A program made the position numbers and the translations under genes. Shown here one piece after another: positions 7,083 to 27,123 of a stretch of DNA of 27,792 nucleotides; the first letter of the stretch is position 1; each line of letters starts with the position of its first letter. The stretch is taken from positions 1 to 27,792 of IMG/VR virus record IMGVR_UViG_3300042923_000047, one strand, 5' to 3'. This stretch comes from a virus. The notes under the pieces were generated by a model. The model was not told the origin of the DNA. It did not search any database and saw nothing but the letters and a program-made list of their open reading frames with translations.

Positions 7083-7093
7083 GGGGTGATAGT

Positions 7094-9245: not shown

Positions 9246-9280
9246 TAGATAACCACTGCCTGAAAGGAGGTGATACATAA

Positions 9281-10381
9281 TTGGCAGTACAACGATATGA
9301 CAGTATAAGCATGCCGACAGCGAGAATTGATGCTGACGGTTTTTTGCATGATACGCCTATTCTTACGAGAACGGGCGTTTTTCGTTACCGTAACCCTGAT
9401 GGAACTGAGCGCCTTGAATATCGTCCTCCTGATGAAGTATTCCGCGCTGATAGCCTTGCGTCTTATAAAGGCAAGCCTATAACCATACGCCACCCCACCG
9501 AGGGTGAAGTCAATTCACGCAATGCTCGCAAGGTGACAGTCGGGACTATTGTCAGCGAAGGCCGGCAGGATGGCAATAATGTCATGGCCGATGTTGTAGT
9601 TCATGACCCCGGTGCAATGGGAAGAAGCCGTGAACTATCATTGGGATATCGGCTGGATGTTGTGGAAAGTGCTGGCGTAACGCCTGAAGGTGAGAGATAC
9701 ACCCATATCCAGCGCGATATTATGATCAATCACTTATCTGTGGTGCCGTCGGCCAGGGCCGGGCGCGAAGCCAGGCTGAACCTTGATGGCGATGAAATTA
9801 TTGAAGATGAAAGCGAGGGAAAGAAAAACATGGAAAAAATCAGATTGGACTGCATCGAATATGAAGCCGCTCCCGAAGTAATTAATGCCTTAAATAAGGC
9901 CAATACCCGGGCAGATGCTGCAGAGACAGCACAAAAGACTATTCAAACTAATCTTGACACAGTTACCGCAGAACGGGACGGCCTGAAAGTTAAAGTTGAG
10001 GCCCATCCTGCCGAAATTGAGAAGGTGCGTAAAGATGCTGCCGATGCATTGAATGCTGCCGTAAAGGGCCGCGTTGACCTGTTGGATACAGCAAAGGCTT
10101 TCAATATTGACAAGGCCGATGAACTGTCCGACAAGGACATTAAACTTGCTGTTATCAAGGCCGTGCGGGGTGATAGTTTCGATCCTACCGGTAAGTCCGA
10201 TGATTATATCAATGCAGCGTTTGACTTTGCCAAAGGTGAAAAACGGACCGATGCAATGGCAAAGCAGCGCCAACAGATTAAACAGCAGAACACTAACAAC
10301 GACAGTGAAGAAGGTTCAAGCCAATCTGCTCGTCAGAAGATGATCGAGAGACAACAAAATGCCCATAAGGGAGGTAAATAA
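9281..10381 (+). CDS. DUF2213 protein: prohead protease with scaffold region
   Basis: A 366-aa protein with TTG start 9281, six bases after a perfect AAAGGAGGTGAT (9263-9274). Residues about 10-165 match DUF2213: an N-terminal GVFRYRNPDGTERLEY, then ITIRHP, then a block ending in NHLSVVPSARAGREA, where the His and Ser are candidate protease residues. The C-terminal half is charged, helical and ends in a Gln/Lys-rich tail, like a capsid scaffold. It therefore looks like a protease-scaffold fusion placed before the capsid genes. An internal in-frame start at 9830 may yield scaffold alone. Confidence 0.82.
   Translation: MAVQRYDSISMPTARIDADGFLHDTPILTRTGVFRYRNPDGTERLEYRPPDEVFRADSLASYKGKPITIRHPTEGEVNSRNARKVTVGTIVSEGRQDGNNVMADVVVHDPGAMGRSRELSLGYRLDVVESAGVTPEGERYTHIQRDIMINHLSVVPSARAGREARLNLDGDEIIEDESEGKKNMEKIRLDCIEYEAAPEVINALNKANTRADAAETAQKTIQTNLDTVTAERDGLKVKVEAHPAEIEKVRKDAADALNAAVKGRVDLLDTAKAFNIDKADELSDKDIKLAVIKAVRGDSFDPTGKSDDYINAAFDFAKGEKRTDAMAKQRQQIKQQNTNNDSEEGSSQSARQKMIERQQNAHKGGK
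9830..10381 (+). CDS. Possible nested scaffold protein (internal start)
   Basis: Within the DUF2213 gene, ATG 9830 (residue 184) is in frame and preceded by GAGGGAA (about 9815-9821) at good spacing, exactly at the junction of the protease and helical regions. Initiation here would give a 183-aa scaffold without protease. The arrangement parallels the nested scaffold genes known from lambda (C/Nu3). This is inference from position and ribosome binding site; an internal methionine of the long product is the simpler reading. Confidence 0.4.
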   Translation: MEKIRLDCIEYEAAPEVINALNKANTRADAAETAQKTIQTNLDTVTAERDGLKVKVEAHPAEIEKVRKDAADALNAAVKGRVDLLDTAKAFNIDKADELSDKDIKLAVIKAVRGDSFDPTGKSDDYINAAFDFAKGEKRTDAMAKQRQQIKQQNTNNDSEEGSSQSARQKMIERQQNAHKGGK

Positions 10382-10383
10382 TA

Positions 10384-10845
10384 ATGCAACTTGCTTATGA
10401 TCAAAAAATGCCCATTGGGCTTGCTGGTACGCAGTATGATATTTCTTTTCGCCGCGTGGATGCCTACGCTGTCGAAACAGATGACATTTACCCAGGAATG
10501 GGTGTAATTCTTGGAACCAACAAAGAAAAGCAGGTAAAGCTTGCCGCTGCAACTACTGCTGTAGTGGCCGGAATTGCTATGTTGCAAGCCAAAGAACAGG
10601 ATGCAAACGGCAATGTAATCTACAAGGACGAGCAGACAGTGCCGGTCCTGAATAAAGGCCGGGCTTGGGTGCCTGTCACTGAGGCGGTTACTGCCGGAAA
10701 CGGTGGGTTCTTGGTATTCTCCGGTGCCAACAAAGGCAAATGGGCTGCTGCAGCTGGCGCTGGTCCGATTGCATCTGCAATTACCGGAGCAAAATTCATC
10801 ACTTCGACCACCGGCGCAGGATTGGCCGTTGTGGAATTAAGTTAA
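10384..10845 (+). CDS. Head decoration / structural cement-type protein
   Basis: A 153-aa protein starting at ATG 10384 just behind GGGAGGT. It is beta-rich and Ala/Gly/Val-rich, with GMGVILGTNKEKQVKLAA, VVAGIAMLQAKEQD and VPVLNKGRAWVPV, a pattern typical of small capsid-stabilising proteins encoded immediately before the major capsid gene. No signal peptide or enzyme motif is seen. The role (binding the outside of the shell) is inferred from the position between the scaffold and capsid genes. Confidence 0.7.
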   Translation: MQLAYDQKMPIGLAGTQYDISFRRVDAYAVETDDIYPGMGVILGTNKEKQVKLAAATTAVVAGIAMLQAKEQDANGNVIYKDEQTVPVLNKGRAWVPVTEAVTAGNGGFLVFSGANKGKWAAAAGAGPIASAITGAKFITSTTGAGLAVVELS

Positions 10846-10861
10846 GGAGGCGATTGCACGA

Positions 10862-11818
10862 ATGGAAAAACGATATGACGAAAAAGATTTATACGCAATT
10901 GAAAGCTCTCAGCGGCTTGACGCCAACGAGAGCATTTTCTTTGCCCAGGAATTGGAGAGCGTAAAGGCACGGACATATGACATTGTATTGGCGGAGTTGT
11001 CCGCTCTCGGAATTATCCCGGTCGATAGCTCTGCAGGTGCCGGTGCCGAAACCATTACCTACCACCAGTACGGCGAAGTCGGGCAAGCAAAAATTATTGC
11101 TAACTATTCCACCGATCTGCCGCGAGTGGATTTGGTCGGCAAGAAGTTTACCTCTGATGTGAAATCTATTGGCGTTAGCTATGGCTATTCGATTCAGGAT
11201 ATCCGGGCTGCGCGAATGGCAGGCAAACCGCTTGAACAACGCAAAGCCAGCGCTGCACGACGCGCCAATGACCAGCAGGTAAACGACATTGCTTTTTTCG
11301 GTGACGAAGAGCACGGTCTTGTGGGCCTCCTGACTCACCCGAACATTCCGACATACACTCTGCCTGCCGATGGCACGGGCAGCAGCACTAAATTTAAGGA
11401 CAAGACTGCTGACCAAGTATTGCGCGATCTTAACGGCATGGTCACTAAAATGCTCGAATTGACCAAGAATGTGGAAAGGCCGGACACTCTTCTGTTAGGT
11501 CATACGACACATTCCGACTTGACAAGCCGTCGCGTGGGTGATACGCAGGTTACTATCTTGGCATTCTTCCTGGCAAATAATCCTTATATTAAGAACGTGC
11601 AAGTTGTTCCGGAGTTTGTTGGTGTCGGTACTGGTGAAACAGATATCTGCATGATTTATAAAAAATCTCCTGATAAACTGACGCTTGAAATCCCGCAGCC
11701 GTTTGAACAGTTTCCGGTACAAATGGAAGGCTTGGAATACGTTGTTCCCTGCCACTCCCGGAACGGCGGCGTGATCATTTACTTCCCGTTATCTCTCATG
11801 AAAGCGGAGGATTGTTAA
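10862..11818 (+). CDS. Major capsid protein, DUF2184 family
   Basis: A 318-aa protein starting at ATG 10862 behind AAGGAGG (10844-10850). The N-terminal region (FFAQELESVKARTYDIVLAE), the central YGYSIQDIRAARMAGKPLEQ and the C-terminal FPVQMEGLEYVVPCHSRNGG match DUF2184, an HK97-fold capsid family related to encapsulin-like shells. The length is normal for the family. It follows the scaffold and decoration genes and precedes the connector genes, the standard head order. It is expected to be the most abundant virion protein. Confidence 0.88.
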   Translation: MEKRYDEKDLYAIESSQRLDANESIFFAQELESVKARTYDIVLAELSALGIIPVDSSAGAGAETITYHQYGEVGQAKIIANYSTDLPRVDLVGKKFTSDVKSIGVSYGYSIQDIRAARMAGKPLEQRKASAARRANDQQVNDIAFFGDEEHGLVGLLTHPNIPTYTLPADGTGSSTKFKDKTADQVLRDLNGMVTKMLELTKNVERPDTLLLGHTTHSDLTSRRVGDTQVTILAFFLANNPYIKNVQVVPEFVGVGTGETDICMIYKKSPDKLTLEIPQPFEQFPVQMEGLEYVVPCHSRNGGVIIYFPLSLMKAEDC

Positions 11819-11819
11819 T

Positions 11820-12017
11820 ATGGCTAAATTCATCAAAAATACTTGCAAAGGCGTTATTTGCCTTGGTAAAAAGAATTTTATTCCTGGTGCTGAACCTGTT
11901 GAAGTAACCGAAGAAGAAGTAAATCACCCAATGATTCAAAAATACATTGAGGCTGAAAAGCTGGCGCTAATCGAAGAACCAGAACCTGCGGCAGAAAAAG
12001 CCAGCAAAGCAAAATGA
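11820..12017 (+). CDS. Small protein between capsid and connector genes
   Basis: A 65-aa protein, ATG 11820, with a CGGAGG ribosome binding site near 11804-11809. It has a short beta-rich N-terminus (FIKNTCKGVICLGKKNFIPG), an acidic middle (VEVTEEEVNHP) and an Ala/Glu/Lys tail. Small proteins of this look (FIPG, then E-V-E-E/D at the end of a strand) commonly lie after capsid genes and may be minor head or hinge proteins. The tail end overlaps the next start (ATGA at 12014). Exact role unknown. Confidence 0.65.
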   Translation: MAKFIKNTCKGVICLGKKNFIPGAEPVEVTEEEVNHPMIQKYIEAEKLALIEEPEPAAEKASKAK

Positions 12018-12397
12018 CCGCGCTGCAAGCGTTCCGCATCGTTGCGCCTGAGTTTGCCGCGATGAATGATGCTGACGTAACCGCTATACTAGACTTTGTG
12101 TCTAACGAGTTAAGCGAGAGCAAATTCGGCAGTGACTACGCCAAGGCTCACGCTTACCTCGCGGCGCATTTCTTGGCATGGCAGAAGATAGTCGCAATAG
12201 GCAGCACAACAGGCGCGGCTACAGGTGGCAGGGTGATTAGCGAAAAAGAGGGCGAACTAGCCCGAAGTTATGCCGATGGAGGCAGTAATCAAGCGGGTGG
12301 TACATTCCTGGATAATTTTGACCGTACAGCCTATGGCCTGGAATATAAGAGATTGGCACGAAAGCATATTGTGCCAATCCTTACCCGTATGGGGTAG
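12014..12397 (+). CDS. Head-tail connector, DUF4054 family
   Basis: A 127-aa protein starting in an ATGA overlap at 12014. The helical pattern FRIVAPEFAAMNDADVTAIL, AHAYLAAHFLAW, and the C-terminal FLDNFDRTAYGLEYKRLARK is that of DUF4054 proteins, which serve as the adaptor ring below the portal in myophages with this gene order. A short polar, Gly-rich loop lies between the two helical parts. Role inferred from family and position. Confidence 0.8.
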   Translation: MTALQAFRIVAPEFAAMNDADVTAILDFVSNELSESKFGSDYAKAHAYLAAHFLAWQKIVAIGSTTGAATGGRVISEKEGELARSYADGGSNQAGGTFLDNFDRTAYGLEYKRLARKHIVPILTRMG

Positions 12398-12400
12398 CCT

Positions 12401-12871
12401 ATGGCAAAGGCAATACGGGACATTGACCGGGGATATGGCCGGATACTGAAAGCGCTGGTTGAGTTTAAAGGTCAGGAAATTGCAGTCGGGTTGCAGGCTG
12501 GGGATAAGACGGATGACGGAAAGTTTGACATCGCATCTGTCGGTGTTGTGCAAGAGTTTGGCAGTGACAATATTCCTGAACGCCCGTTTCTGCGCAATAG
12601 TTTTGATGAAAAAAACAAAGCTTGGAATAGTGTCGCACTATCTCAGGTTGGGCAGGTTATCGACGGCAGAAAAGCCGCAGTAACGGCCATGAATACGATT
12701 GGTGAAGTCATGCAGGGCGACATTCAGAAAAAGATTGTTGATGGCCCGTTTACGCCTAATGCTCCTGCTACAGTTAAGCAGAAAGGCAGTGCCCGTCCTT
12801 TAATCGATTCTGGTCGTATGAGGCAATCAGTCCGGTATGCAATCCGTAAGCGGGGAAGTGGGAAGAAGTGA
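12401..12871 (+). CDS. Neck / tail-completion protein, HK97 gp10-like
   Basis: A 156-aa protein, ATG 12401, three bases after the previous stop; the ribosome binding site is weak, so coupling is likely. Family signs are VGVVQEFGSDNIPERPFLR in the first half and a C-terminal PLIDSGRMRQSVRYAIRKRG, typical of phage neck proteins that complete the head-tail junction (gp10-like, virion morphogenesis proteins). A basic C-terminus overlaps the next gene by 4 bases (GTGA). Confidence 0.72.
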   Translation: MAKAIRDIDRGYGRILKALVEFKGQEIAVGLQAGDKTDDGKFDIASVGVVQEFGSDNIPERPFLRNSFDEKNKAWNSVALSQVGQVIDGRKAAVTAMNTIGEVMQGDIQKKIVDGPFTPNAPATVKQKGSARPLIDSGRMRQSVRYAIRKRGSGKK

Positions 12872-13212
12872 GCAGTTTTAGAAAGCCTATATCGGTTAAG
12901 CGCACAGAGCCCGGTCATTATGGCGATGATGGTAACTGGGTTGACGGTGCAGAAACAACATTAACAATTTATATGAGCGTTCAGCCGCTTCGAGTTGATG
13001 AAATGGACGCTCTGCCAGAGGGCCGCAGAAATAGCCGCGCTGTGAAGATATATTCTGATGACGAATTGCTGCCGGCAGAACAAACAACAGGACAAAATGC
13101 CGACTTTATTACATGGCAGGGTAAGCAGTGGGAGGTAATTGGCTGCGACCCATATCAAATGGGCGTGATAAGCCATTACAAAAGCCTGGCCGTGGAGGTG
13201 AAGGCCAATTGA
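12868..13212 (+). CDS. Head closure / head-tail joining protein
   Basis: A 114-aa protein with GTG 12868 in a GTGA overlap. It is beta-rich: the N-terminal FRKPISVKRTEPGHY and the C-terminal DFITWQGKQWEVIGCDPYQ resemble small barrel-like head-closure proteins lying between the connector and the tail terminator. No catalytic motif. Assignment rests mainly on fold pattern and gene order, so the general role is likelier than any specific family. Confidence 0.62.
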   Translation: MSSFRKPISVKRTEPGHYGDDGNWVDGAETTLTIYMSVQPLRVDEMDALPEGRRNSRAVKIYSDDELLPAEQTTGQNADFITWQGKQWEVIGCDPYQMGVISHYKSLAVEVKAN

Positions 13213-13763
13213 CCGATGCAGAGGCAAGAGTCTTCATTCTGCCACTTATCCGTGAACTTTGCGGCAATATAACTGCCATCTGGGATTATCAGAATAAGCC
13301 AAAGCCTGCCAATCCCTATCTGAGCCTTAGGCTATCGCCTGAAAGGGATATCGGCACTGAAACGAGGCACAGAACCGATAATAGTGGACTGCTGGATATT
13401 GTACAACAAAAAGAAGTAACATTGATGATTAATTCCTTTGGTACCGGAACTACCGACAAAATAAATATGCTATGGCAAAATTTACAGCGGCCTACTATTG
13501 TGGACCGCTGTTTTGCTGCCGGTATATCGTTTGTACGGTCTGAACAACCACAAGATTTAACTTTTCTGCTTGATGGCCGTAGTTGGGAGGAGAGAGCCAA
13601 TATTGACCTGATTGTGACTTACAGCAGGTCTATAGAGGACAATCCTGGATACATTGATACCATTGCTATTGTGGGAGAATTAGGAGAACCGGACCCGATA
13701 CCTCCGGAACCTCCTGAAGAGGTCATAGTCGAAGTAACTATAGAAATGAAAGGGGTGGAATAA
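13209..13763 (+). CDS. Neck/tail terminator protein (LIC_12616-like)
   Basis: A 184-aa protein. TTG 13209 overlaps the previous stop (TTGA) and follows GGAGGTGA (13195-13202), deciding this start over an upstream ATG at 13128. Sequence features are FILPLIRELCGNI, YLSLRLSPERDIGTE and VTLMINSFGTG, matching phage neck terminator proteins that cap the tail tube. The C-terminal 30 residues are Pro/Glu-rich and probably disordered (EPDPIPPEPPEEVIVEV). The next gene, the sheath, begins directly after the stop. Confidence 0.75.
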   Translation: MTDAEARVFILPLIRELCGNITAIWDYQNKPKPANPYLSLRLSPERDIGTETRHRTDNSGLLDIVQQKEVTLMINSFGTGTTDKINMLWQNLQRPTIVDRCFAAGISFVRSEQPQDLTFLLDGRSWEERANIDLIVTYSRSIEDNPGYIDTIAIVGELGEPDPIPPEPPEEVIVEVTIEMKGVE

Positions 13764-14834
13764 TTGGCCGATATTAACAGAATTGCAAATGTGCAAATTA
13801 GTTTGCAAGGTACTGGCATAAATAAAAAGGACTTCAACACGATACTGATTGCTTGCCCTGAGGTTGTAACCGCTAGTCGTGTTGTTGCCTACACTAGCGC
13901 CGATGATATGCTTGACGATGGCTTTGAAGATACTGACGCTGCTTATTTGGCTGTACGCGATGCTCTTAGCCAGACACCGCGACCGCGCTATGTGAAGATT
14001 GGGCAGAAGAAAGAGGCTGATGCCTCATGGGCGGCTGCTCTTGCGGCGATTGCACAGGAGGATAACAATTGGTATGGCCTTGGATTAACGAGCCGTACAA
14101 GCGCTGATATCCTTGCTGTGGCAGCATGGGCAGAAGCGGCAGGTAAACTGTTTTGTACTTCTGTTGCTGAAGCGGGAGCAATTTCTGCTGTATCAACTAC
14201 GGACACGCCTTATTTACTTAAGGCACAGAATTACTACCGGTCTCCTAGCTTCTATCATGCTGATGCTGCAACAGATTTCCCTGAGATTGCAACAATGGCA
14301 AGATGCTTTGCTGTGTTGCCTGGTGGCGAAACATGGGCAAATAAAAAGCTTGCAGGTGTAACGTCCGACAAACTGACTGAAACTCAATTTCTGGCGGCGA
14401 AAGGGAAAAACTGCAATACCTTTGAACCATTCCGCGATAGTATTTCTATTACCCAAACCGGGAAAGTGCCAGCAGGTGAGTGGATTGACGTTATCCGATT
14501 TAGAGACTGGCTTCAGGAAGAAATACAGGTCAATATTTTTAACTTGCTGATTAATCGCAATAAGATTCCTTATACAGATGAAGGAATTGCCTGCATTCAA
14601 TCTGCTATATCTCAAGCATTGGAACTTGGGCAGCGCCGGGGTGGTATCGCTCCTACAGAGTGGGACGAAGATGGAAATGAAATTCCAGGCTATGTGATCA
14701 ATGTTCCGCTTGCGTCTCAAATCAGCGCGAACACTAAAGCGAGCCGGATATTAGAGGATTTGACGTTTACTGCAAGACTTGCCGGCGCAATCCACGTTGT
14801 GGAAATTACCGGTAGTCTGGCTTATGAACTATAA
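13764..14834 (+). CDS. Tail sheath protein, DUF3383 family
   Basis: A 356-aa protein with TTG start 13764 behind AAGGGGTGGA. The N-terminal VQISLQGTGINKKDFNTILI and the C-terminal GAIHVVEITGSLAYEL, with DVIRFRDWLQEEIQVNIFNL between, are hallmarks of DUF3383 contractile-tail sheath proteins. It shows this is a myovirus-type tail. It is short compared with T4-type sheaths but normal for DUF3383. The tube gene follows after 13 bases. Confidence 0.88.
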   Translation: MADINRIANVQISLQGTGINKKDFNTILIACPEVVTASRVVAYTSADDMLDDGFEDTDAAYLAVRDALSQTPRPRYVKIGQKKEADASWAAALAAIAQEDNNWYGLGLTSRTSADILAVAAWAEAAGKLFCTSVAEAGAISAVSTTDTPYLLKAQNYYRSPSFYHADAATDFPEIATMARCFAVLPGGETWANKKLAGVTSDKLTETQFLAAKGKNCNTFEPFRDSISITQTGKVPAGEWIDVIRFRDWLQEEIQVNIFNLLINRNKIPYTDEGIACIQSAISQALELGQRRGGIAPTEWDEDGNEIPGYVINVPLASQISANTKASRILEDLTFTARLAGAIHVVEITGSLAYEL

Positions 14835-14847
14835 GGGGGTGAAGTAA

Positions 14848-15279
14848 TTGTCACTTGGAACATATGATCCTAAAAAGGTTATTGTATCGTTCGGAGGCGT
14901 TGAATTAAAAGGGTATGCCGAAAGCTCAATGATCACTGTTTCTCCGATGGGCGACGGTACTTCCAGTATAGTTGGGTGTCACGGCGATGTAGTCAGAACA
15001 ATTTCACCTGATCGGCGCAGTACCGTGACAGTAACGCTGCTGCAATCATCTTCCAGCAATGATTATTTATCTCTGATATATGCGAGAGACCGGTCGAAAG
15101 GCGATGGTGTACTGCCGTTAATCGTAAAAGATTTATCCGGGCGATTGACGCACTTTGATTCTCAGGCATGGATTAACAATATTCCGGAAGTTAACCGGAC
15201 AAACAATGCATCTGACGGTAATACCGAATGGGTATTCACGACTGCCGATTCTATGCCGTTTGTGGGAGGGCACGATTAA
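14848..15279 (+). CDS. Tail tube protein, DUF3277 family
   Basis: A 143-aa protein with TTG 14848 behind AAGGGGGTGA. TYDPKKVIVSFGGVELKGYA at the N-terminus and VTLLQSSSSNDYLSLIY in the middle match DUF3277 proteins, which form the inner tube of myophage tails (beta-sandwich hexamer rings). The sheath-tube pairing confirms the call. The stop overlaps the start of the tail chaperone gene (TAATG). Confidence 0.88.
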   Translation: MSLGTYDPKKVIVSFGGVELKGYAESSMITVSPMGDGTSSIVGCHGDVVRTISPDRRSTVTVTLLQSSSSNDYLSLIYARDRSKGDGVLPLIVKDLSGRLTHFDSQAWINNIPEVNRTNNASDGNTEWVFTTADSMPFVGGHD

Positions 15280-15758
15280 TGTCGAACGAGTTTACTCAAG
15301 GTGACTATACCTTTTATATCAGTCCTATGGACCCTTTTCTGGCACTTGAATTACTGGGAGATTTGCAGAAGACTTTTCTGCCGGCCATTGGTGCTGCATT
15401 TGGCAAAAGTGACATGTCCGAAGAAAAAAAGAATGTCACCATGGCCGACTTGCTCAGCCGGAAAATTGATATTCAATCCGCGCTCATTCAATTATCAGGA
15501 GCCATAAACGGCATCAATTTAAAGAACATGCTGCAGCGGATACTTAACTCTGATTATATCCGGTACGAACAAAACGGCGATGTAAAGAAGCTAGACAAGG
15601 TAGCTCTGATGTCTATATATAATGGCAACCTGTCGGGTATGTTTGAATTGGCTTGGAAAGTGCTGCAGGTGAATTATGCTGATTTTTTTACAATGTTTCC
15701 CGGCCCATCTGGTCTGGGAATAGAAAACGTAAAAGCCATGCTATCCCAGGACAATTAA
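15279..15758 (+). CDS. Tail assembly chaperone (zero-frame product)
   Basis: A 159-aa protein. ATG 15279 overlaps the tube stop, and GGGAGG lies at the expected distance. It begins with SNEFTQGDYTFYISPMDPFL and is then mostly helical. Genes in this position encode the G-type tail chaperone that binds the tape measure protein while the tube forms. Near the 3' end it contains a run of seven T (15683-15689), the site of the likely -1 frameshift that makes the longer form. Confidence 0.78.
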   Translation: MSNEFTQGDYTFYISPMDPFLALELLGDLQKTFLPAIGAAFGKSDMSEEKKNVTMADLLSRKIDIQSALIQLSGAINGINLKNMLQRILNSDYIRYEQNGDVKKLDKVALMSIYNGNLSGMFELAWKVLQVNYADFFTMFPGPSGLGIENVKAMLSQDN

Positions 15759-15958
15759 GACCTGATGTAGCTGATCGTCTGCTAATATGGAGGCCAATCA
15801 CGGCAAAGGTAGTAAGTTTAGAGGCCGTCAAAAGCGGCCTTGTTACGCTTACCGACTTGCAGGAATTGAATGCCATACTTGATATGCAGAATGATATACA
15901 GGACCAGGCTGTTGATGATGCAAAAGCCGAAGCTGATAAGAACCGGAAAAATAAATAA
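15279..15958 (+). CDS. Tail assembly chaperone, -1 frameshift product (G-T type)
   Basis: After slipping back one base on TTTTTTT (15683-15689), translation continues in the -1 frame to TAA 15956-15958. The result is 226 aa (137 from the zero frame plus 89). The -1 frame is open only from 15683, its 89 codons contain no ATG or GTG start near the front, and the sequence is protein-like (PDVADRLLIWRPITAKVV; LVTLTDLQELNAILDM) with a charged C-terminus. This is the classical gpG/gpGT arrangement of tailed phages, where the extended form recruits the tape measure. The fraction shifted is unknown. Confidence 0.72.
15683..15720 (+). other. -1 ribosomal frameshift signal: T7 slippery site plus hairpin
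   Basis: TTTTTTT (15683-15689) is an ideal X XXX XXX heptamer in the correct phase (T TTT TTT). Seven bases further, TTCCC (15697-15701) pairs with GGGAA (15716-15720), with an inner GCC/GGT pairing, giving a stem-loop at the spacing expected for a stimulatory element. Confidence 0.72.
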
Positions 15959-16000
15959 TATATGTCTATTTGCAATAAATGGTAGAGGAGATGAAAATTA

Positions 16001-16009
16001 TGGTATAAT
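16001..16009 (+). promoter_or_regulatory. Extended -10 promoter of the MuF cassette
   Basis: TGGTATAAT is a perfect extended -10 element (TG-n-TATAAT). No good -35 box lies 16-18 bases upstream (GGTAGA at 15981), which extended -10 promoters tolerate. It lies after the tail chaperone stop and before the gene at 16049, so it can express the cassette independently of the late operon, including in a lysogen. Confidence 0.6.
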
Positions 16010-16048
16010 GGTGGAAAATATCTTTTTTGTTCAGAAGGGATAATTAAA

Positions 16049-16711
16049 ATGAATTTATGGAAATTTATTTTATCTTTCTTTACGCATAAAGACACAGAAT
16101 CAAAGAGTCATCAAAAAGAATCATTTATTGCAAACAGTATGGTTATTGGTGAAGGTGTAAGAAAAGAATTAGATGGACTCCACGGGCAAAGATCATTGGA
16201 ACTTATGTATGTTAATTGGCCGGCAAGCGAAATATCTACACTATTAACCCCGGATATAATAAGATTTGTATTTTACGAAAGCCTGTACCATGCAAAATTG
16301 AATAAACATATACAAAATGAGCTACAAGAAAGATATAGTAATCTTACTGAAGAAGAAGCAAGGATAATAGTTCGTAGCGTTGCAAGTAAGGCAAATTCTG
16401 TATTTGGTAGAGTGAGAGCGGAAAAAATTGGAGTAAAGTGGTATCAATGGAGCACTAGCCGTGATAAGCGAGTAAGACCAAGCCACCGAAAGCTAGAAGG
16501 TGTATTGATTCCTTGGAAATATCCCCCCTCCCCGGAAGAACTCATTGGGAAGCCATTTATTGGACACTATCATGCTGGCGAAGGGACCGAATGTCGTTGC
16601 TGCGCTTTGGCTATTGTAGATTTAAGTGACATTAAATTTCCGAGGCGTGTATATTGGCAAGGCAAAATCCAAGTAATGAAGAAAAGTGATTTTGCGAAAA
16701 TATTTGACTAA
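16049..16711 (+). CDS. Second MuF-domain protein, cassette gene 1
   Basis: A 220-aa protein, ATG 16049 with an AGAAGGGA ribosome binding site. The C-terminal half is a MuF domain clearly related to the minor head protein at 8415-9245: WYQWS at 131-135, RVRPSH at 141-146, and ECRC at 181-184. The helix before it also aligns. The N-terminus differs (short hydrophobic MNLWKFILSFF, then a polar helical region) and the portal-side helical region is much shorter. It is AT-rich, about 35 percent GC by hand count of six lines, versus nearer 50 percent for capsid genes sampled. With its own promoter and terminator it looks like a moron; role unknown. Confidence 0.75.
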   Translation: MNLWKFILSFFTHKDTESKSHQKESFIANSMVIGEGVRKELDGLHGQRSLELMYVNWPASEISTLLTPDIIRFVFYESLYHAKLNKHIQNELQERYSNLTEEEARIIVRSVASKANSVFGRVRAEKIGVKWYQWSTSRDKRVRPSHRKLEGVLIPWKYPPSPEELIGKPFIGHYHAGEGTECRCCALAIVDLSDIKFPRRVYWQGKIQVMKKSDFAKIFD

Positions 16712-16739
16712 TAAATATTATATAAAGAGAGGTGATTTT

Positions 16740-17162
16740 ATGGCTTTTCGAGTGATAGCTGGCGATCTTCATAGTTTATCAAAATACAACATGAGCAAAC
16801 TTCTTGATGAGAAGAAACTTATTGCCGCACTTATTGATGATAAAGGGAAAACTCGTGTTGAAGAAATTGATATACGAGGAAACATTGATAAAATTGAACT
16901 AGTTACCGAAGAATCGAAGAAAAACTTTATTGGAACCGCCGGATGGGGATTGGTCGGAGCGGCAGCATTGGGACCAATTGGTTTAATTGCCGGCGCGTTA
17001 GCCGGTGGCAACAAAAAGGAAATTTGTTTTGCTTGTCATCTTAAAAACGGTTACAAGTTTATGGCTATTTCAAGCCCTGATATATATCAAGATTTTGTTG
17101 GGGCGCAATATGAAAAACCTAAACAAGAAAAACCAAAAAAGAAATGGTCACTGTTCAAATAA
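16740..17162 (+). CDS. Glycine-zipper membrane protein, cassette gene 2
   Basis: A 140-aa protein. ATG 16740 is preferred because AGAGAGGTGAT precedes it at good spacing. The first 60 residues are soluble and charged. Residues 63-90 are hydrophobic and very Gly-rich (Gly at 65, 68, 70, 73, 78, 81, 85, 89 and 90), a glycine-zipper membrane hairpin or helix. A small beta-rich piece follows (EICFACHLKNGYKFMAIS), then a basic Lys/Pro tail. This layout occurs in small bacterial and prophage proteins of unknown function. Encoded with the MuF paralogue, it could act at the membrane, for example in superinfection exclusion (inference). Confidence 0.68.
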   Translation: MAFRVIAGDLHSLSKYNMSKLLDEKKLIAALIDDKGKTRVEEIDIRGNIDKIELVTEESKKNFIGTAGWGLVGAAALGPIGLIAGALAGGNKKEICFACHLKNGYKFMAISSPDIYQDFVGAQYEKPKQEKPKKKWSLFK

Positions 17163-17179
17163 ATATTGGCTTTATAGTT

Positions 17180-17203
17180 ACCCGCCGATTGGCGGGTTTT
17201 CTT
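17180..17203 (+). terminator. Intrinsic terminator of the MuF cassette
   Basis: ACCCGCC (17180-17186), loop GATT, GGCGGGT (17191-17197) form a 7-bp GC-rich stem followed by TTTTCTT. It closes the cassette opened by the promoter at 16001, but it also lies directly in front of the tape measure gene within the late transcript. Late mRNA must therefore read through it. Confidence 0.8.
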
Positions 17204-17215
17204 ATGCCCAAAAAC

Positions 17216-17226
17216 AAGGGGGTGAT
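17216..17226 (+). promoter_or_regulatory. Ribosome binding site of the tape measure gene
   Basis: AAGGGGGTGAT is a strong ribosome binding site of the type used before the portal, tube and other genes here. In the tube gene the start codon lies eight bases after the G run; applying the same distance here points to ATC at 17231, not to any ATG, GTG or TTG. This decides the start discussed under the tape measure gene. Confidence 0.7.
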
Positions 17227-17230
17227 ATAT

Positions 17231-18748
17231 ATCGTTGTAAGAGAGTTGCTAATAGCTCTAGGCTTCCAATTAGACCAAAGCAAATTAAAGCAGGCTGATG
17301 CAGGAATAAATAAGTTTAAGGCAAGTGCTGAATCCGCTATCAGTGTGCTTGGCCGGATGGCCGCTACAATCGGCGTTGTATTTGGAGTTGGAGAAATTAT
17401 TAAAATGGGTGATGCATGGACCAACGTTGATTCGCGAATCGGTCTTGTTACAAAGTCAACCGCCGAACAAGCTGAAATGCAACAAAAGGTATTTGATATA
17501 GCCCAAAAAACCCGCCAGGAGTATACATCTACTGGCGATCTATTTTTTAAAATGGCGCGAAATTCCAAGCAATTAGGTGCGTCGCAACAGGATGTGCTTG
17601 ATGTAACTGAAACAGTAAATAAAGCTTTGGTAATTGGCGGTGCAAGCACCGCAGAAGCCAACGCGACGATTTTGCAGCTTAGTCAAGCATTGGCTTCTGG
17701 ACGATTGCAAGGGGACGAACTTCGTTCTCTCAGTGAAAATGCTTCTATTTTAATGGATGAAGTCGCAAAATATTATGGCGTAACCGTTGGAAAATTAAAA
17801 GAAATGGGCAAGGATGGGGAATTGACGGCAGAAGGAGTCTTTGCTGCAATACTTAAGGCTAAATCCAAAATGGATGCAGAATTCGAAAGAATGCCAATTA
17901 CTATTGGTCAGTCGGTTACTTATGCACTTAATGAGATAGGAATGCTAATATTTAAGATAAACAAAGAAACAGGCGTTTTTCAGTCGATTGCCAAAGGAAT
18001 CATACGCGCAACAAATTGGATTACGAGTTCTATTGACAGAGGAGTAAAAGTAGTTGGTGGGTGGGGAAAGGCTTTTAAACTACTAACAGCTGCGATTGTC
18101 TCATTCGGCGCTGCTTTATACATTGTTAGAAACGGTCTTTTTACTTTGCAAATGTGGGCACTCTGGCTTCAAATTTTACGATTAGGAGTAGTAAATCTCG
18201 CTCGATCTTTCCTTGCATTCCTGCTCAACCCCGCATTTTTGACAATAGCGGCAATAACAATAGGACTAGTTTTAATGGCTCTGGCATTAGAAGACCTTTA
18301 CTACTGGATAACTGGCGGCGATTCAGTTCTTGGTGACTGGCTAGGATCGTGGGAAGGGTTTAAAACAAAGGTTGACGCTTGGATTTACAACCTTGTAAGT
18401 AATTTGCAAAGCTACTGGAGAAATTTAAGAAATTCCATATTCCAATACATTGACGACATGATCAACAAGGTAATGGAGTGGGCGAATAAGGCCAAAAATT
18501 TCTTTGGCATGGTAGGAATGGCATCAATGCAAGCAGATGTTGGCGGTTTCGGTGTAACACCCGCGTCAATGTACCCTGGCGGCGGTGGCCCTGTTACTAT
18601 CAACGTTGGCGACACCAATATTGAACAGAACATAGCCGGGACTGGACAACAACTTGCCAATGATGTCGGGGTGGCCACAGGGGATGCCGCTTCTGATTCA
18701 AATAGCAAGCTTGCTAGAGATATTGAAAATATTGCTTTTGCATGGTAA
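17231..18748 (+). CDS. Tail tape measure protein
   Basis: About 505 aa if it starts at ATC 17231, the codon at standard distance from the ribosome binding site. In-frame alternatives are ATG 17204 (no proper site), GTG 17222 (inside the site) and TTG 17246 (too far). The N-terminus REL-LIALGFQLDQSKLKQA is followed by a tape-measure domain (MGDAWTNVDSRIGLVTKS; NKALVIGGASTAEANATI; ALASGRLQGDELRSLSENA). Hydrophobic segments lie at about 305-365 (LTAAIVSFGAALYIV; TIAAITIGLVLMALA), and the C-terminus is Gly-rich and probably disordered. At about 1.5 angstrom per residue the tail would be roughly 75 nm. It determines tail length and helps DNA entry. Confidence 0.85.
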   Translation: MVVRELLIALGFQLDQSKLKQADAGINKFKASAESAISVLGRMAATIGVVFGVGEIIKMGDAWTNVDSRIGLVTKSTAEQAEMQQKVFDIAQKTRQEYTSTGDLFFKMARNSKQLGASQQDVLDVTETVNKALVIGGASTAEANATILQLSQALASGRLQGDELRSLSENASILMDEVAKYYGVTVGKLKEMGKDGELTAEGVFAAILKAKSKMDAEFERMPITIGQSVTYALNEIGMLIFKINKETGVFQSIAKGIIRATNWITSSIDRGVKVVGGWGKAFKLLTAAIVSFGAALYIVRNGLFTLQMWALWLQILRLGVVNLARSFLAFLLNPAFLTIAAITIGLVLMALALEDLYYWITGGDSVLGDWLGSWEGFKTKVDAWIYNLVSNLQSYWRNLRNSIFQYIDDMINKVMEWANKAKNFFGMVGMASMQADVGGFGVTPASMYPGGGGPVTINVGDTNIEQNIAGTGQQLANDVGVATGDAASDSNSKLARDIENIAFAW

Positions 18749-18759
18749 GGCGGTGAAAT

Positions 18760-19383
18760 ATGGCTACAGCAAGCATATTTTTTTCGGAACTGAAAAACCC
18801 CACCAAGATAGGGACTATCGAAGTTGATATCCTGGTTGAGCAGGAACATAAACTTGATTCCGAGGTCACCGAACACCCGGTTGAAGATGGCTTTGCGGTC
18901 GCTGACCATGTAATCAGAAAACCTATCACAGTGTCTTTGGTAATCGGAGTCACATTAAGTCCTGTCACTTGGTTTGACCGTCTTGGTGGCAGTACAGATA
19001 AAATCAATAACGCATTGTCCGCTATTGAGCAAATATATAAAAATGCGCAGCCTATTTCCATTGTCACTCCGACCAATACATGGGAAAACATGGTCATGAC
19101 TTCGGCCAATATCCCGCGAAATGTTGAAAATAAAAACATGATTCGCATACCTTGTGAGTTTACTCAAATTCGCAAGGTTAATGTAAGAACAACTGTTGTC
19201 CCCGTTAACGTTGTTAATGTTGAAATGATTAATCGCGCTGGCGAAACAGAGGCAAACGGTGGCGTTGCTACACAAACGGATATAGGTAACGTTGGCGATT
19301 CAACCGGCGGCGGTGCGGCCGAAGCAGAAATACGGCAATCAACGTTGAAGTCGCTTAAAAATAGTTGGTTTGGAGGCAAATAG
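18760..19383 (+). CDS. Baseplate Dit-like protein
   Basis: A 207-aa protein, ATG 18760, behind AAGGCGGTGA. The pattern VEQEHKLDSEVTEHPVEDG followed by DHVIRKPITVSLVIGV, then ISIVTPTNTWENMVMT, is characteristic of the Dit-like tail proteins found after the tape measure in myophages of this type. The C-terminal 50 residues are Gly/Thr-rich and likely flexible. It probably forms the ring linking tube and baseplate hub. Confidence 0.78.
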   Translation: MATASIFFSELKNPTKIGTIEVDILVEQEHKLDSEVTEHPVEDGFAVADHVIRKPITVSLVIGVTLSPVTWFDRLGGSTDKINNALSAIEQIYKNAQPISIVTPTNTWENMVMTSANIPRNVENKNMIRIPCEFTQIRKVNVRTTVVPVNVVNVEMINRAGETEANGGVATQTDIGNVGDSTGGGAAEAEIRQSTLKSLKNSWFGGK

Positions 19384-19386
19384 ATT

Positions 19387-19716
19387 ATGCAAACAATTGC
19401 CTTTCTTGATGCCAGCGACATTGCGTTCGTAGCCACGTTAGACGGTACACAATACAAGGTCCGGATGCTATGGAATGATTATGGCAAGTTCTGGACACTA
19501 AGCCTGAGAACAGCAGAGAATATTTCTTTGCTTGAAGGTGTAAAAGCTGTGCCTGACTTCCCTTTGTTATTTCCTTACCACCGACCAGGAATACCACCAG
19601 GGGAGTTAATGGTTGTTACCATGGATACAACTATCCAGACCGTCAACCGGTCAGGCTTTGCCAATAGTAAAGCTATTCTCTACTATATTACGGAGGCTGA
19701 GCTAAATGCAATTTAA
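19387..19716 (+). CDS. Baseplate plug-type protein (Pam3 gp18-like)
   Basis: A 109-aa protein, ATG 19387, behind TTGGAGG. It is beta-rich with TLDGTQYKVRMLWNDYGKFW and LLEGVKAVPDFPLLFPYH, a pattern typical of the small plug protein of simple contractile baseplates, encoded between the Dit-like and hub genes. Overlaps the hub gene by 11 bases. Confidence 0.72.
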   Translation: MQTIAFLDASDIAFVATLDGTQYKVRMLWNDYGKFWTLSLRTAENISLLEGVKAVPDFPLLFPYHRPGIPPGELMVVTMDTTIQTVNRSGFANSKAILYYITEAELNAI

Positions 19717-20611
19717 CCGGATATTTCGCCTTATGGTCGGTGTCCAGGGTGGTGAAGGGGTAATCATTGAATCCGACGGTAAAAACGACAGTCTGCGGAT
19801 TGCATTTGACATCGACAAGGATTTAACGCAACAGACCAATAAAAGCCAAATAGCCATATACAACCTGTCGGAAGCAACAAGGAAAAAACTTGAGGTAGCA
19901 GACACCATATGTGAATTACATGTAGGATATGCCGAGGACGTAGGTCTGAAGCGTATTTTTTTAGGCGTCGTTACCTATGTAACTACCCGGCGAGAAGGTG
20001 CCAGTAAGGTCACTGAACTTGAATTGTCAGACGGTCAAATCGCAATCAGGGACACTGTTGTTTCGCTTGGGTATTCAGCGGGAGTGGCAGGCGGTAAAGT
20101 GGTTGGCGATGTAGCAGCACAAATGGGACTAATAACCCAAATAGCCCCAGACGTGGAATTAACCTCTTATCCTTCCGGATTCTCTTTTGTTGGCATGGGA
20201 CGCGACTGCCTTGACAAAGTAATGGCTGCTTCCGGTGCCACATGGAGCATACAAAACAATGTCCTACAGATCATTGTGGCTGGCAGTAGCACAAATGTAA
20301 GGATTTTAGTATTCGCGCCTAACAGCGGCCTCGTAGGCAGTCCAGAACGAATTATCAAGGCTGTCAAACGCCCCGACGAACAGGCCAAGAAGAAACGCAA
20401 GGTCAAAAAAGAAAAACATGATAAAAAGGCCGGGTGGAGGATTAAAACACTATTAGCACCTACGGTTAATCCCGGTGATATGGTTCGAGTGGAATCAGAT
20501 ACTGTTACTGGATGGTTTCGCGTGGAGTCGCTTAAAAATTCCGGCGACACACATGGGCGAGAATGGTATACAGAACAGGAACTGATCGAAATTTTGCAGG
20601 ATGAGGCATGA
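19706..20611 (+). CDS. Baseplate hub protein (late control D-like)
   Basis: A 301-aa protein, ATG 19706 behind CGGAGG (19691-19696). The N-terminal IAFDIDKDLTQQTNKSQIAI followed by YNLS matches hub proteins of myophage baseplates (gp27/gpD-like tube-adaptor folds). The middle contains FVGMGRDCLDKVMAASGATW, usual in this family. A very basic stretch (KKKRKVKKEKHDKKAG, about 232-247) is a surface loop. The C-terminus has a small barrel motif (TVNPGDMVRVESDTVTGWFR). It forms the trimeric hub carrying the spike. Confidence 0.8.
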   Translation: MQFNRIFRLMVGVQGGEGVIIESDGKNDSLRIAFDIDKDLTQQTNKSQIAIYNLSEATRKKLEVADTICELHVGYAEDVGLKRIFLGVVTYVTTRREGASKVTELELSDGQIAIRDTVVSLGYSAGVAGGKVVGDVAAQMGLITQIAPDVELTSYPSGFSFVGMGRDCLDKVMAASGATWSIQNNVLQIIVAGSSTNVRILVFAPNSGLVGSPERIIKAVKRPDEQAKKKRKVKKEKHDKKAGWRIKTLLAPTVNPGDMVRVESDTVTGWFRVESLKNSGDTHGREWYTEQELIEILQDEA

Positions 20612-20614
20612 TGT

Positions 20615-21157
20615 ATGAGCAATAACGGAGCTATTCAGGCATTAACCGATATGGTGCGCGGCGAAATATCCGGGATTCACACTTCTGCGCCAGGCAAGAT
20701 AGTCAGTTATGACAGTGGAACGGGCAGGGCCAGTGTGCAGCCATCCCTTAAGTTTAAAGTAGCTGATGGCCGGTCTCTCGACTCTCCTGTAATCGTCAAT
20801 GTGCCGGTATACTTCCCAAGCGGTGCGGGTGCAAGTATTACCTATCCTATCGCTGCCGGTGACCCCTGCTGGCTGGTATTTGCTGAGCGCAGTATTGATG
20901 ATTGGCTATTAGGCGGCGAAAGCGAAGACCCGCGCAAATATGACTTGACTGACTGTGTCGCTTTTGTCGGCATGAAGCCTACGCGAAGCACGAACAACAA
21001 TGCAATTGAGATTACCAACGGCGGCTGTACAGTTAGCATTCCAAGCGGAGGGCCGGTAAGCATTAACACTGACGTGATTATAAACGGGATATCATTCCTA
21101 CAACATGTTCACGGAAGCGTTCAGCCCGGTAGCGGCAATACATCAACACCAGAGTAA
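20615..21157 (+). CDS. Baseplate spike protein, Gp138 N-terminal domain
   Basis: A 180-aa protein; ATG 20615 lies four bases after the previous stop codon. IHTSAPGKIVSYDSGTGRAS is the OB-fold start of phage Gp138-type spikes, and AAGDPCWLVFAERSIDDWL is the conserved core. The C-terminal third has repetitive Ile/Asn/Gly sequence (AIEITNGGCTVSIPSGG; SINTDVIINGI), compatible with a triple-stranded beta-helix, and ends in a short HVHG motif that could bind metal at the tip. It would pierce the outer surface on contraction. Confidence 0.82.
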   Translation: MSNNGAIQALTDMVRGEISGIHTSAPGKIVSYDSGTGRASVQPSLKFKVADGRSLDSPVIVNVPVYFPSGAGASITYPIAAGDPCWLVFAERSIDDWLLGGESEDPRKYDLTDCVAFVGMKPTRSTNNNAIEITNGGCTVSIPSGGPVSINTDVIINGISFLQHVHGSVQPGSGNTSTPE

Positions 21158-21169
21158 AGGAGGCAAAGC

Positions 21170-21538
21170 ATGTATGACATAGCATTATCAGTCGCAACCC
21201 ATGATTTAATTATTAAAGATGGCGACTTGATTCTGATTGACAATGCAGAACGAGTTTCCCAGCAGATAAAGATTAAATTAAGGTCTTTCTTGGGGGAGTG
21301 GTTTTTAGATACCACTTATGGGGTGCCTTATCTCGAAGAAATTCTGATAAAAAATCCTAGCCTAAACAATATCCGCAATATCCTGCGGACGCAAATACTT
21401 GATGTTGACGATGTTGCTGCTGTTACCTCCTTGGAATTGTCTCTCAACAGCTCCGCTAGGACACTAACAGTTACTTTTGAATGTCAAACCACTTATGGCC
21501 TCGTAACGAGCAGGGAGGTGCTAGGATATGGCAACTGA
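21170..21538 (+). CDS. Baseplate wedge protein, gp25/W-like
   Basis: A 122-aa protein, ATG 21170, behind AAAGGAGG. The lysozyme-like wedge fold is indicated by VSQQIKIKLRSFLGEWFLDT, then YGVPYLEEILIKNPS, the recognised signature of GPW/gp25 proteins that connect sheath and baseplate. The gene order spike, gp25, J is standard. It overlaps the next gene by 11 bases. Confidence 0.88.
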   Translation: MYDIALSVATHDLIIKDGDLILIDNAERVSQQIKIKLRSFLGEWFLDTTYGVPYLEEILIKNPSLNNIRNILRTQILDVDDVAAVTSLELSLNSSARTLTVTFECQTTYGLVTSREVLGYGN

Positions 21539-22949
21539 ATACGGCGTAACAGTGAACGGCTTTGTCCGCAAACGGTTGCCAGAGATTAAAGCGGACATCG
21601 AAGCGCGTTTTGCAAATGCTTTTGGTGTAGCGATAAGCACAAAACCTAATAGTGTGATTGGGCAGCTTGTTGGGGTATTATCCGGATCGGTTGATGATCT
21701 TTGGCAGTTGGCAGAAGATAATTACAATTCCATGTATCCGAATACATCTAACGGCGTAAGTCTAAGCAGCTCAGTAGGATATTCCGGTGTTACCAGGCTG
21801 AACGCGCAGAAAACAAAGATATATGCAGTATGCTACGGAACTCCCGGCACTGTTATAACCAGCGAATCGCAAATACAAGGAAACGACAGCAATTATTACG
21901 AGAACATTGACGCTGCAACAATCAGCCTATCGAACGCAGTAAGCCTGTCGCTGACTTTGGCAAGCGTTAGTAATGGCACGACCTATACGGCAACAATTGA
22001 CGGCACGACGTTAACGAAAACCGCAGGTAGCGGCGATACGGTAAATACGGTTTTAGTCGCTTTGACTACCGGTGTTCCTGCTGGTTGGTCGGCAAGTGTT
22101 AGTAATAATGTGCTGACATATACCCAGACTGACCGAATTAATGGCAAGGTAGTAAACTACTCGACGACTATGCAAATTGTCAATGTTGCCACTCCTGTTG
22201 AGTTTTACGCTGTTGAGTATGGCCCGCTTGACCCTGCGATCGGCAGTGTAACCAGTATAATCACTCAGGTTGCTGGTTGGGTTGCGGCAAGCAACGAAAG
22301 CGCGGCATATCCCGGGCGCAATATTGAGACAGACACCGAGCTCCGGCAGCGTTATGCCAGCACTGTTTCGGCGCAAGGGATGGCAATGGTGGAATCTATC
22401 AGAGCTAACCTCCTTGAAAATGTGAGTGGCGTTACTGCGGCGATAGTCTTTGAAAACTCAACCGATGCAACTGACGGCGACGGCAGACCTCCGCATAGCA
22501 TAGAGGCCGTGGTACAAGGTGGCGATGAGCAAGACATTGGCGATATGATTTGGGATACAAAAGCCGCCGGCATTGACACATATGGCTCTATTACAACAAC
22601 AGTTAAAGACAGCCAAGGCATCGACCATCCAATAAAATTTAATCGTCCTACCGAAGTCGATGTTTATCTCAGGTGCGTTTTGCATGAAGATCCGGAAGGC
22701 TCAATTCCTGGTGATGGTCCGCAACGTGCTGCTGATTTGTTATTAACCCGGGGAGAATTGCAAACGGTCGGACAGGATGTAGTCCTACAGAAACTATCTG
22801 CTTATATTATTCAAAATGTCGCAGGAATTGGCTATATTGAACTTGAGGGATCATTAGACGGAACAACCTACAGTCACCTCAATATAACAATTAACTCCCG
22901 GTCCCTTGCCGTGTTTGATGCATCGCGAATAGAGGTGACTGTAGAATAG
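21528..22949 (+). CDS. Baseplate J-like protein
   Basis: A 473-aa protein, ATG 21528, behind GGGAGGTG. The N-terminus (RLPEIKADIEARFANAFGV, then NSVIGQLVGVLSG) and the central YPGRNIETDTELRQRYAST followed by SIRANLLENVSGV are typical of baseplate J / gp47 proteins. About residues 140-225 form a Thr/Ser-rich beta insertion (SNGTTYTATIDGTTLTKTA) present in some relatives. The protein builds the wedge and carries the fibre-attachment proteins. The stop overlaps the following GTG start. Confidence 0.86.
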   Translation: MATEYGVTVNGFVRKRLPEIKADIEARFANAFGVAISTKPNSVIGQLVGVLSGSVDDLWQLAEDNYNSMYPNTSNGVSLSSSVGYSGVTRLNAQKTKIYAVCYGTPGTVITSESQIQGNDSNYYENIDAATISLSNAVSLSLTLASVSNGTTYTATIDGTTLTKTAGSGDTVNTVLVALTTGVPAGWSASVSNNVLTYTQTDRINGKVVNYSTTMQIVNVATPVEFYAVEYGPLDPAIGSVTSIITQVAGWVAASNESAAYPGRNIETDTELRQRYASTVSAQGMAMVESIRANLLENVSGVTAAIVFENSTDATDGDGRPPHSIEAVVQGGDEQDIGDMIWDTKAAGIDTYGSITTTVKDSQGIDHPIKFNRPTEVDVYLRCVLHEDPEGSIPGDGPQRAADLLLTRGELQTVGQDVVLQKLSAYIIQNVAGIGYIELEGSLDGTTYSHLNITINSRSLAVFDASRIEVTVE

Positions 22950-23674
22950 TGGATTACTCTATTGTTTGTGGTTTTCAGCCGACGGCATTCGAGCAACCAA
23001 CAGCGGAAGAAGTAATACTAACTGACTACAGACAGCAGATGATTGACCGTCTGCTGATGCAGTTTAACGAATCGCCTTTCTTACATGGCGTATTAAATGC
23101 TACAGGAGAAGAACTAAACCTACTTGGGCAGGTGTTCCAAGACCTAAAAACAAAGCGGTGGATTGATACGGCAGAAGGACTACATCTTGACGGATGCGGC
23201 CAAATTGTCCAGCAGGACAGGCGCATAAGTCAGGCTATTATTATTCCCTTTTTCGGTTTTGCGGAGCAGCTCGGCACTACCGGCTTTGAGCAGGGGAGAA
23301 TACGATCCGATCGGGAGACGTACTTGTCTACAGCTACGCTGCCTGATACTGAGTATAAGCAAATCATTTGGGCGAAAGTGGCTAAGAACATAACAAGCGG
23401 AACGGCAGAGGAAACGATACAAAGCCTGTCTCAATTATATGGCGCAAAAATAATACTTGCTGATTCTGGCAACGCAACAATTACTATTTCCATCGGCAAA
23501 AGGTTAACCGATGCGGAAATTGTTCTCGCTAACGCGTTGGATTTGTTGATAAGGTCCGGAGGCGTTGGAATAACATCCAAGTCTTATTTTGCAGAGGGGA
23601 ATACTTTCGGTTTTTCAGATCAAAACCAGGGGTATCTTGGATTTGATCAAGGAATATTGGCAGTAGAATTTTAA
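22949..23674 (+). CDS. Baseplate protein, DUF2612 family
   Basis: A 241-aa protein with GTG 22949 overlapping the stop of the J gene (TAGTG). LNLLGQVFQDLKTKRWIDTA and YKQIIWAKVAKNITSGTAEE match DUF2612 proteins that follow the J gene in myophages; they are analogous to tail protein I / gp48 wedge proteins. The Phe/Gly-rich C-terminus (NTFGFSDQNQGYLGFDQG) may be where fibres dock. The first tail fibre gene follows. Confidence 0.82.
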   Translation: MDYSIVCGFQPTAFEQPTAEEVILTDYRQQMIDRLLMQFNESPFLHGVLNATGEELNLLGQVFQDLKTKRWIDTAEGLHLDGCGQIVQQDRRISQAIIIPFFGFAEQLGTTGFEQGRIRSDRETYLSTATLPDTEYKQIIWAKVAKNITSGTAEETIQSLSQLYGAKIILADSGNATITISIGKRLTDAEIVLANALDLLIRSGGVGITSKSYFAEGNTFGFSDQNQGYLGFDQGILAVEF

Positions 23675-23688
23675 AAGGGGGTTAGTTA

Positions 23689-24432: not shown

Positions 24433-24437
24433 TTGAT

Positions 24438-24881
24438 TTGCCGTATAATACAAGAACCCTAAAAAAAGATAATAGCGAAGCAATTCCCGTCGCCCAGGTT
24501 TACGACTCTGCAATTGACGATTTTGTAGTTTTGCAAGGTAAAAATGGTAGCATGAATGTAACTCCGACTGACGATGCTGGCAATAAACTGTTTACTCCGT
24601 CCCACCCAGGTGTTATGGATTACTCAGACAAAATGAAAGAACCGTTTTTTTCCAATACTAATATGAATAAGACGTTTACAGAGACGATGAGAGGTTTTGG
24701 ACTAGCCAATGATGTCGATCTTGACAGTCTTCCTCCTGACCCAGACGTTGTTTTTACTATACCGGAAATCGACTTTACTTTTACGGTTAAACCTGGAGAG
24801 ATATTTGACTACAGACTAAATGATTTTGTAACTGTCGAAATAATATCTGATGTACCGTTCAGGGCATGGGGGAGGGGTTAA
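24438..24881 (+). CDS. Hypothetical fibre-associated protein
   Basis: A 147-aa protein with TTG 24438 behind GGGGAGGT. It has a polar, beta-rich N-terminus (AIPVAQVYDSAIDDFVVLQG), a flexible middle and a C-terminal beta segment (FTIPEIDFTFTVKPGE; VTVEIISDVPFRAWGRG). No family is recognised. Lying between two fibre genes, it is probably a fibre connector, chaperone or accessory tail protein. Confidence 0.6.
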   Translation: MPYNTRTLKKDNSEAIPVAQVYDSAIDDFVVLQGKNGSMNVTPTDDAGNKLFTPSHPGVMDYSDKMKEPFFSNTNMNKTFTETMRGFGLANDVDLDSLPPDPDVVFTIPEIDFTFTVKPGEIFDYRLNDFVTVEIISDVPFRAWGRG

Positions 24882-24882
24882 A

Positions 24883-27109: not shown

Positions 27110-27123
27110 ATGGGGGTGGGGAT

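Follow-up and report, generated by a model that had tools for sequence, protein, structure and literature searches.

In phage HK97, a frameshifted tail chaperone gene (7472–8145) is followed by Gp15, annotated as a "moron product" (8203–8391), a terminator (8398–8422) and the tape measure gene (from 8435). HK97 gp15 mediates superinfection exclusion, is predicted to reside in the inner membrane and is ineffective against hybrid phages that carry a different tail tube and tape measure (PMC10883804). Tab of JBD26 (P. aeruginosa), a late-region moron that the prophage expresses from a promoter of its own, stops virion assembly of a competitor (PMC10884400). The MuF domain (PF04233) is represented in minor capsid proteins (e.g., SPP1 gp7 and Mu gpF) as well as in polymorphic toxins (PMC5576092; Bxa, PMC11699363), where its proposed role is targeting to the capsid (PMC5576092, PMC11699363) and where small immunity genes usually follow (PMC5576092).

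The DNA analyzed here, referred to as a whole as the window, comprises the 27,792 bases of a virus record. Its structural genes are those of a temperate-type phage with a contractile tail (terminase, Phage_portal_3 portal, MuF, capsid, sheath, tube, chaperone, tape measure and baseplate). No close relative of the window was found in the phage collection at the DNA level, Rfam returned zero matches within it, and a short contig from IMG/VR shows near identity to it and includes gene 2 together with the end of gene 1. These two genes form a block between a tail chaperone with a −1 frameshift and the tape measure gene, in the following arrangement (the own head MuF gene of the phage is listed first):

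8409–9245, + strand: the phage's own head MuF gene, 3′ of the portal (PF04233, E 8.4e-15), of a clade other than that of gene 1
15291–15758, + strand: tail assembly chaperone (TAC), left neighbor of the insert (PF21822, E 1.8e-17; phrog_1613)
15683–15689, + strand: T TTT TTT (T7) run, read from the sequence as the likely −1 slippery site joining the chaperone to the downstream −1 frame
15690–15958, + strand: second chaperone part (TAC2) in the −1 frame, stop at 15956–15958, the last old-phage sequence ahead of the insert (by translation; in relatives the tape measure follows directly)
16001–16009, + strand: putative extended −10 promoter element of the cassette, TGGTATAAT; the same element lies 5′ of the cargo in five other prophages at this slot
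16049–16711, + strand: gene 1, orphan MuF-domain protein of 220 aa (PF04233; TIGR01641; phrog_29840, E 7e-24; phrog_324; AlphaFold2 mean pLDDT 87)
16740–17162, + strand: gene 2, 140 aa from ATG, a glycine-rich member of the phrog_20920 family that is probably associated with the membrane (phrog_20920, E 7.7e-9; homologues)
17180–17197, + strand: predicted intrinsic terminator at the end of the cassette; terminators are similarly placed in six other cargo junctions
17222–18748, + strand: tape measure protein, right neighbor, starting at GTG 17222 or ATC 17231 (PF20155, E 4.7e-60)

The gene coordinates and signals are as described in the initial annotation, and both genes are intact, each with a plausible ribosome-binding site. 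The overlapping −1 frame of the chaperone resembles that of other tail chaperone pairs, and the block begins just 3′ of position 15958. For the tape measure, the start with the best spacing within 17215–17236 is ATC (17231), which is preceded by AAGGGGGTGAT and coincides with a start codon in the relative G423; the other candidate, GTG at 17222, lies within reach of the ribosome-binding site and overlaps it.

Morons are recognized, among other features, by insertion between genes that are adjacent in related phages, by a base composition unlike that of their flanks and by a terminator of their own. Seven relatives have an empty site between chaperone and tape measure (G423, G526, G429, G496, G386, G612 and Enterobacter phage MII_001), showing that the block interrupts a normally continuous gene pair, as had been proposed. 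The closest of them, G423, shares 72% identity in the capsid (MCP), 70% in the chaperone (TAC), 81% in the C-terminal part of the sheath and 61% in the tape measure (TMP), and its tape measure begins 216 bases after the first chaperone frame, which leaves just enough room for the second frame. Based on the outer-membrane-type genes beside the loci, the class of the G-numbered genomes is probably Negativicutes. The AT-rich character ascribed to the block is confirmed: its GC content is 36.5% vs. 46.8% and 44.6% in the flanks, the lowest of the structural region, with no stretch of equal length in 5703–25000 outside the block falling below 40.4%. At the level of sequence, the stem at 17180–17197 provides the block with its own terminator; no other terminator-like stem in 20 kb is as rich in G+C, with a total count of such candidates not above chance.

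The same slot contains cargo in six prophages with XkdN-type chaperones: a gene-2 homologue in four of them, a related glycine-zipper protein in one and a DUF4236 protein in one. The homologue stands alone in G234 and G486, carries an extra N-terminal part in G443 and is preceded by a gene for a 140-aa protein in G510, while the cargo of G506 is a 236-aa protein with a related glycine-zipper stretch and that of G530 (L149:2575–2930) is the DUF4236 protein, accompanied by the same promoter motif and a terminator. Several of these slot homologues, as well as gene 2, match phrog_20920. One tail region (G452) was left out of the comparison, as the genes 5′ of its tape measure are unlike a chaperone, and the last genome search yielded mostly junctions already in the compared set.

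The claim that the block has an extended −10 promoter of its own is supported in part. The element TGGTATAAT at 16001 is an exact match, but it lacks a good −35, and the four matches of the motif in the window vs. 1.6 expected are within chance, so that the motif needs outside support. Such support is provided by the comparison of 28 chaperone/tape-measure junctions, where TGNTATAAT is present in six of the seven junctions with cargo and in none of the 21 empty ones (Fisher 1.9e-5), and a terminator-like stem in all seven vs. four of 21 (Fisher 2.8e-4), values that overstate independence because the XkdN-type junctions are partly related. The rate in AT-rich stretches of these loci would predict 0.2 promoter motifs in the intervals concerned. 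The one cargo junction without the motif (G234) still has a terminator. The motif cases of G486, G443 and G530 are not all independent of each other, since they have the flanking sequence in common; the window belongs to a tail lineage different from that of the XkdN-type junctions. Thus, the comparison across junctions supports a putative promoter at 16001, and the proposed terminator at 17180 is supported by the G+C richness of its stem as well as by the stems in all cargo junctions. Taken together, the empty sites, the base composition and the promoter and terminator signals surrounding cargo at the same slot elsewhere agree with the initial annotation in regarding the block as an independent cassette: it is almost certainly a moron by anatomy, i.e., a two-gene unit with predicted separate transcription inserted in a tail operon.

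The position of the block is that of HK97 gp15, between a frameshifted chaperone and the tape measure and with a terminator after it. In both cases, the insert lies directly 3′ of the −1-frameshifted chaperone and ahead of terminator and tape measure and includes a small accessory gene of (here, probable) membrane type, whereas HK97 is a siphophage of E. coli with a single 62-aa gene, and the block contains two genes and an extended −10 element in a contractile-tail phage. Neither gene 1 nor gene 2 could be aligned with gp15 at E ≤ 100, and therefore what they share with it is position and arrangement, not membership of a family. With Tab the block shares, by description, the character of a late-region moron with its own (here, putative) promoter; Tab differs in its location, on the opposite strand and flanked by terminase genes, and in acting on the tape measure. 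Occupation of the same spot as the HK97 exclusion gene suggests that the two genes probably serve the dormant virus and not the building of particles. The layout, along with the presence of relatives of both genes in lysogeny modules, makes it quite likely that the cassette is transcribed from the prophage. In particular, the lysogeny module of G423 (L108:5264–9543) combines an S24 repressor, a lipoprotein (weak DUF3862/BLIP), a gene-2 homologue with a zinc ribbon, an NYN-domain gene and an integrase, the homologue lying between the repressor plus lipoprotein and the integrase, and an orphan MuF gene in another locus (L104, 6264–8635) lies, all on one strand, between an HTH repressor gene with a small gene and an integrase gene, its product carrying an N-terminal hydrophobic helix.

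The MuF assignment of gene 1 is secure (PF04233, 42 bits over a cut-off of 29.6, E 1.8e-10; also TIGR01641), and the MuF signature that it was said to have in common with the head protein is confirmed, the two proteins being 31% identical over 134 aa including QWSTS, RVR.SH and CRC. Gene 1 keeps all invariant MuF columns, and its AlphaFold2 model (mean pLDDT 87) is poor only in residues 1–17 and matches predicted viral minor capsid proteins (E 3e-8). A sequence search among solved structures found none, and Foldseek against PDB gave nothing reliable, a second look returning only helical and HTH-like matches with Z < 8. Differences from the minor capsid proteins are threefold: in alignment with head MuFs, gene 1 lacks their N-terminal domain; it is the second MuF gene of its genome; and it is found not next to portal or terminase but in the tail module, 7.6 kb downstream of the end of the portal. 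By sequence, it is most closely related to the C-terminal halves of other phages' head MuFs (e.g., 38% identity to that of Agathobaculum phage AB434P2), and nearly all of its IMG/VR relatives are head MuFs of 261–300 aa, most of them adjoining portal or terminase genes. In the MuF tree, the own head MuF of the phage clusters with the head MuFs of three relatives (G423, G526 and G386), set apart by a 100/100 branch, and gene 1 is placed elsewhere, on a long branch, its exact place being unsure; given the starred branches, the orphan label must have changed at least twice. The description of gene 1 as a MuF copy thus has to be abandoned as far as its own genome is concerned: a recent duplication of the own head MuF is rejected by the separation of clades, and gene 1 is nearer to head MuFs of other phages.

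These features bear on two alternative explanations of gene 1. It could be part of the virion, namely an additional MuF protein that is made late as a result of read-through, packaged with the genome and delivered with it, as may be argued from its intact MuF core and from the association of MuF domains with capsids and the targeting role proposed for them in MuF toxins (PMC5576092, PMC11699363). We consider this quite unlikely, as gene 1 has neither a toxin domain nor the N-terminal domain of head MuFs, is flanked by promoter and terminator motifs of its own, is dispensed with by the relatives and is nearer in sequence to head MuFs of other phages. Alternatively, gene 1 could be a functionless, decaying fragment of a foreign head MuF brought in along with gene 2, given its truncation relative to head MuFs, its long branch and the lack of any other case of its association with gene 2. 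Its intact frame, ribosome-binding site, full set of invariant residues and confident fold speak against decay, as does the recurrence of orphan MuFs of similar size in other prophages, and this explanation appears distinctly improbable. Orphan MuFs of ~227–260 aa occur in other genomes: four lie in early regions, with an antirepressor-like gene nearby (L101, L102, L178 and L180), and others in the integrase locus mentioned above or away from phage genes (L103). Two further MuF arrangements were observed: a zinc-ribbon-like N-terminus followed by the C-terminal half of a MuF protein, encoded close to genes resembling those of type I restriction-modification (L106:9305–9832), and a head MuF in G386 (L045:5484–7226) with a C-terminal extension of ~300 aa, a HEYSHFF motif and a MuF-toxin-like layout, the extension giving no clear Pfam match.

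Gene 2 was described in the initial annotation as having a glycine-rich membrane segment. The glycine-rich segment is real, but it is only moderately hydrophobic (19-residue Kyte-Doolittle value of 1.87) and borderline as a membrane segment; the protein is probably membrane-associated. Its structural model, poor and of low confidence, suggests beta strands that lead into the hydrophobic, glycine-rich segment, after which come two strands and a helix, and a PH-like fold would be only a guess. The family (phrog_20920) is rare, with matches, some of them weak, in 32 of 300 genomes of the class, and no relatives of gene 2 were found in phage and plasmid collections. Apart from the slot and the lysogeny module of G423, its homologues are located after portals or in apparently chromosomal, non-phage places, and in one locus a protein with a zinc ribbon and a ribosomal L7/L12 C-terminal domain is encoded directly 3′ of the homologue (L013:6285–6815). 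Because of the chromosomal occurrences, the family need not be anti-phage. These single chromosomal relatives, along with others that are fused to or adjoin TM2 or zinc-ribbon domains, are in line with a host-directed moron, whose genes would alter the envelope or stress physiology of the lysogen instead of phage resistance, gene 2 possibly being a PH-like or glycine-zipper membrane sensor of cellular origin. This explanation is somewhat unlikely, considering that the slot and the position in the lysogeny module of G423 are typical of exclusion genes and that gene 1 encodes a capsid domain of phages, for which a role in the host is not apparent.

The two genes were not found to travel together. 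No second case of gene 1 beside gene 2 was detected in ~300 genomes of the class, 398 genomes of the phylum and the IMG/VR pattern scans; gene-2 homologues occur alone or with other partners, and gene-1 relatives occur without gene 2. The notion of a pair put forward earlier is thereby not supported: gene 2 changes partners, and the two genes were never found together elsewhere in these searches, which does not favor an obligate pair. A search of PADLOC 2023 with both proteins gave no credible match and a single weak one. The separate occurrence of the two genes elsewhere also weighs against a toxin-antitoxin or toxin-immunity pair, an explanation suggested by two small adjacent genes in one unit and by the small immunity genes that usually follow MuF toxins (PMC5576092). 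The block does resemble the MuF polymorphic toxins in combining a MuF domain, in a temperate-type phage, with a small gene downstream, but it is located in the tail module and not in the head module, and domain-family searches found no toxin domain, either C-terminal in gene 1, which ends ~35 aa past the MuF domain and matched no other family, or in gene 2. We have therefore rejected the toxin reading of the block on the absence of such a domain from both proteins; together with the independent distribution of the two genes, this renders a toxin pair highly improbable.

Based on the HK97 precedent, the most likely function of the block is the exclusion of competitors, and the best overall explanation, to which we tentatively assign a probability of roughly 0.45, is a moron protecting the lysogen from competing phages. 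The cassette would be transcribed in the lysogen, with its terminator stopping lysogenic transcription ahead of the tape measure, and its job would be to shield the lysogen, and hence the prophage, from competitor phages. Gene 2, probably at the membrane, may act at DNA entry in a manner similar to HK97 gp15. The least certain step, and a rather doubtful one, is the role of gene 1 as a decoy: its MuF core without the N-terminal domain might mislead portal/MuF assembly or DNA delivery of a competitor, the phage's own virions being spared. Such a decoy would explain the likeness of gene 1 to foreign rather than own MuFs.

The place of the HK97 exclusion gene is thus also used, with a recurring promoter/terminator arrangement and varied cargo, by prophages with contractile tails in Firmicutes that have envelopes of the Gram-negative type, and the slot may serve as a guide to new phage-exclusion genes. 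It is conceivable, though doubtful, that an exchangeable chaperone/tape-measure slot is widespread and that orphan MuFs, deprived of the assembly part and anchored or targeted differently, act as lysogen decoys against foreign heads or DNA delivery. If orphan MuFs do act as decoys, defense would be a new use of a structural capsid domain, and an activity amenable to testing could be assigned to the MuF domain, which is poorly understood.

Elsewhere in the window, a second AT-rich block (25801–27400) contains a GDSL lipase gene (26369–27088), and the C-terminal half of 24850–26292 also matches phage lipases.
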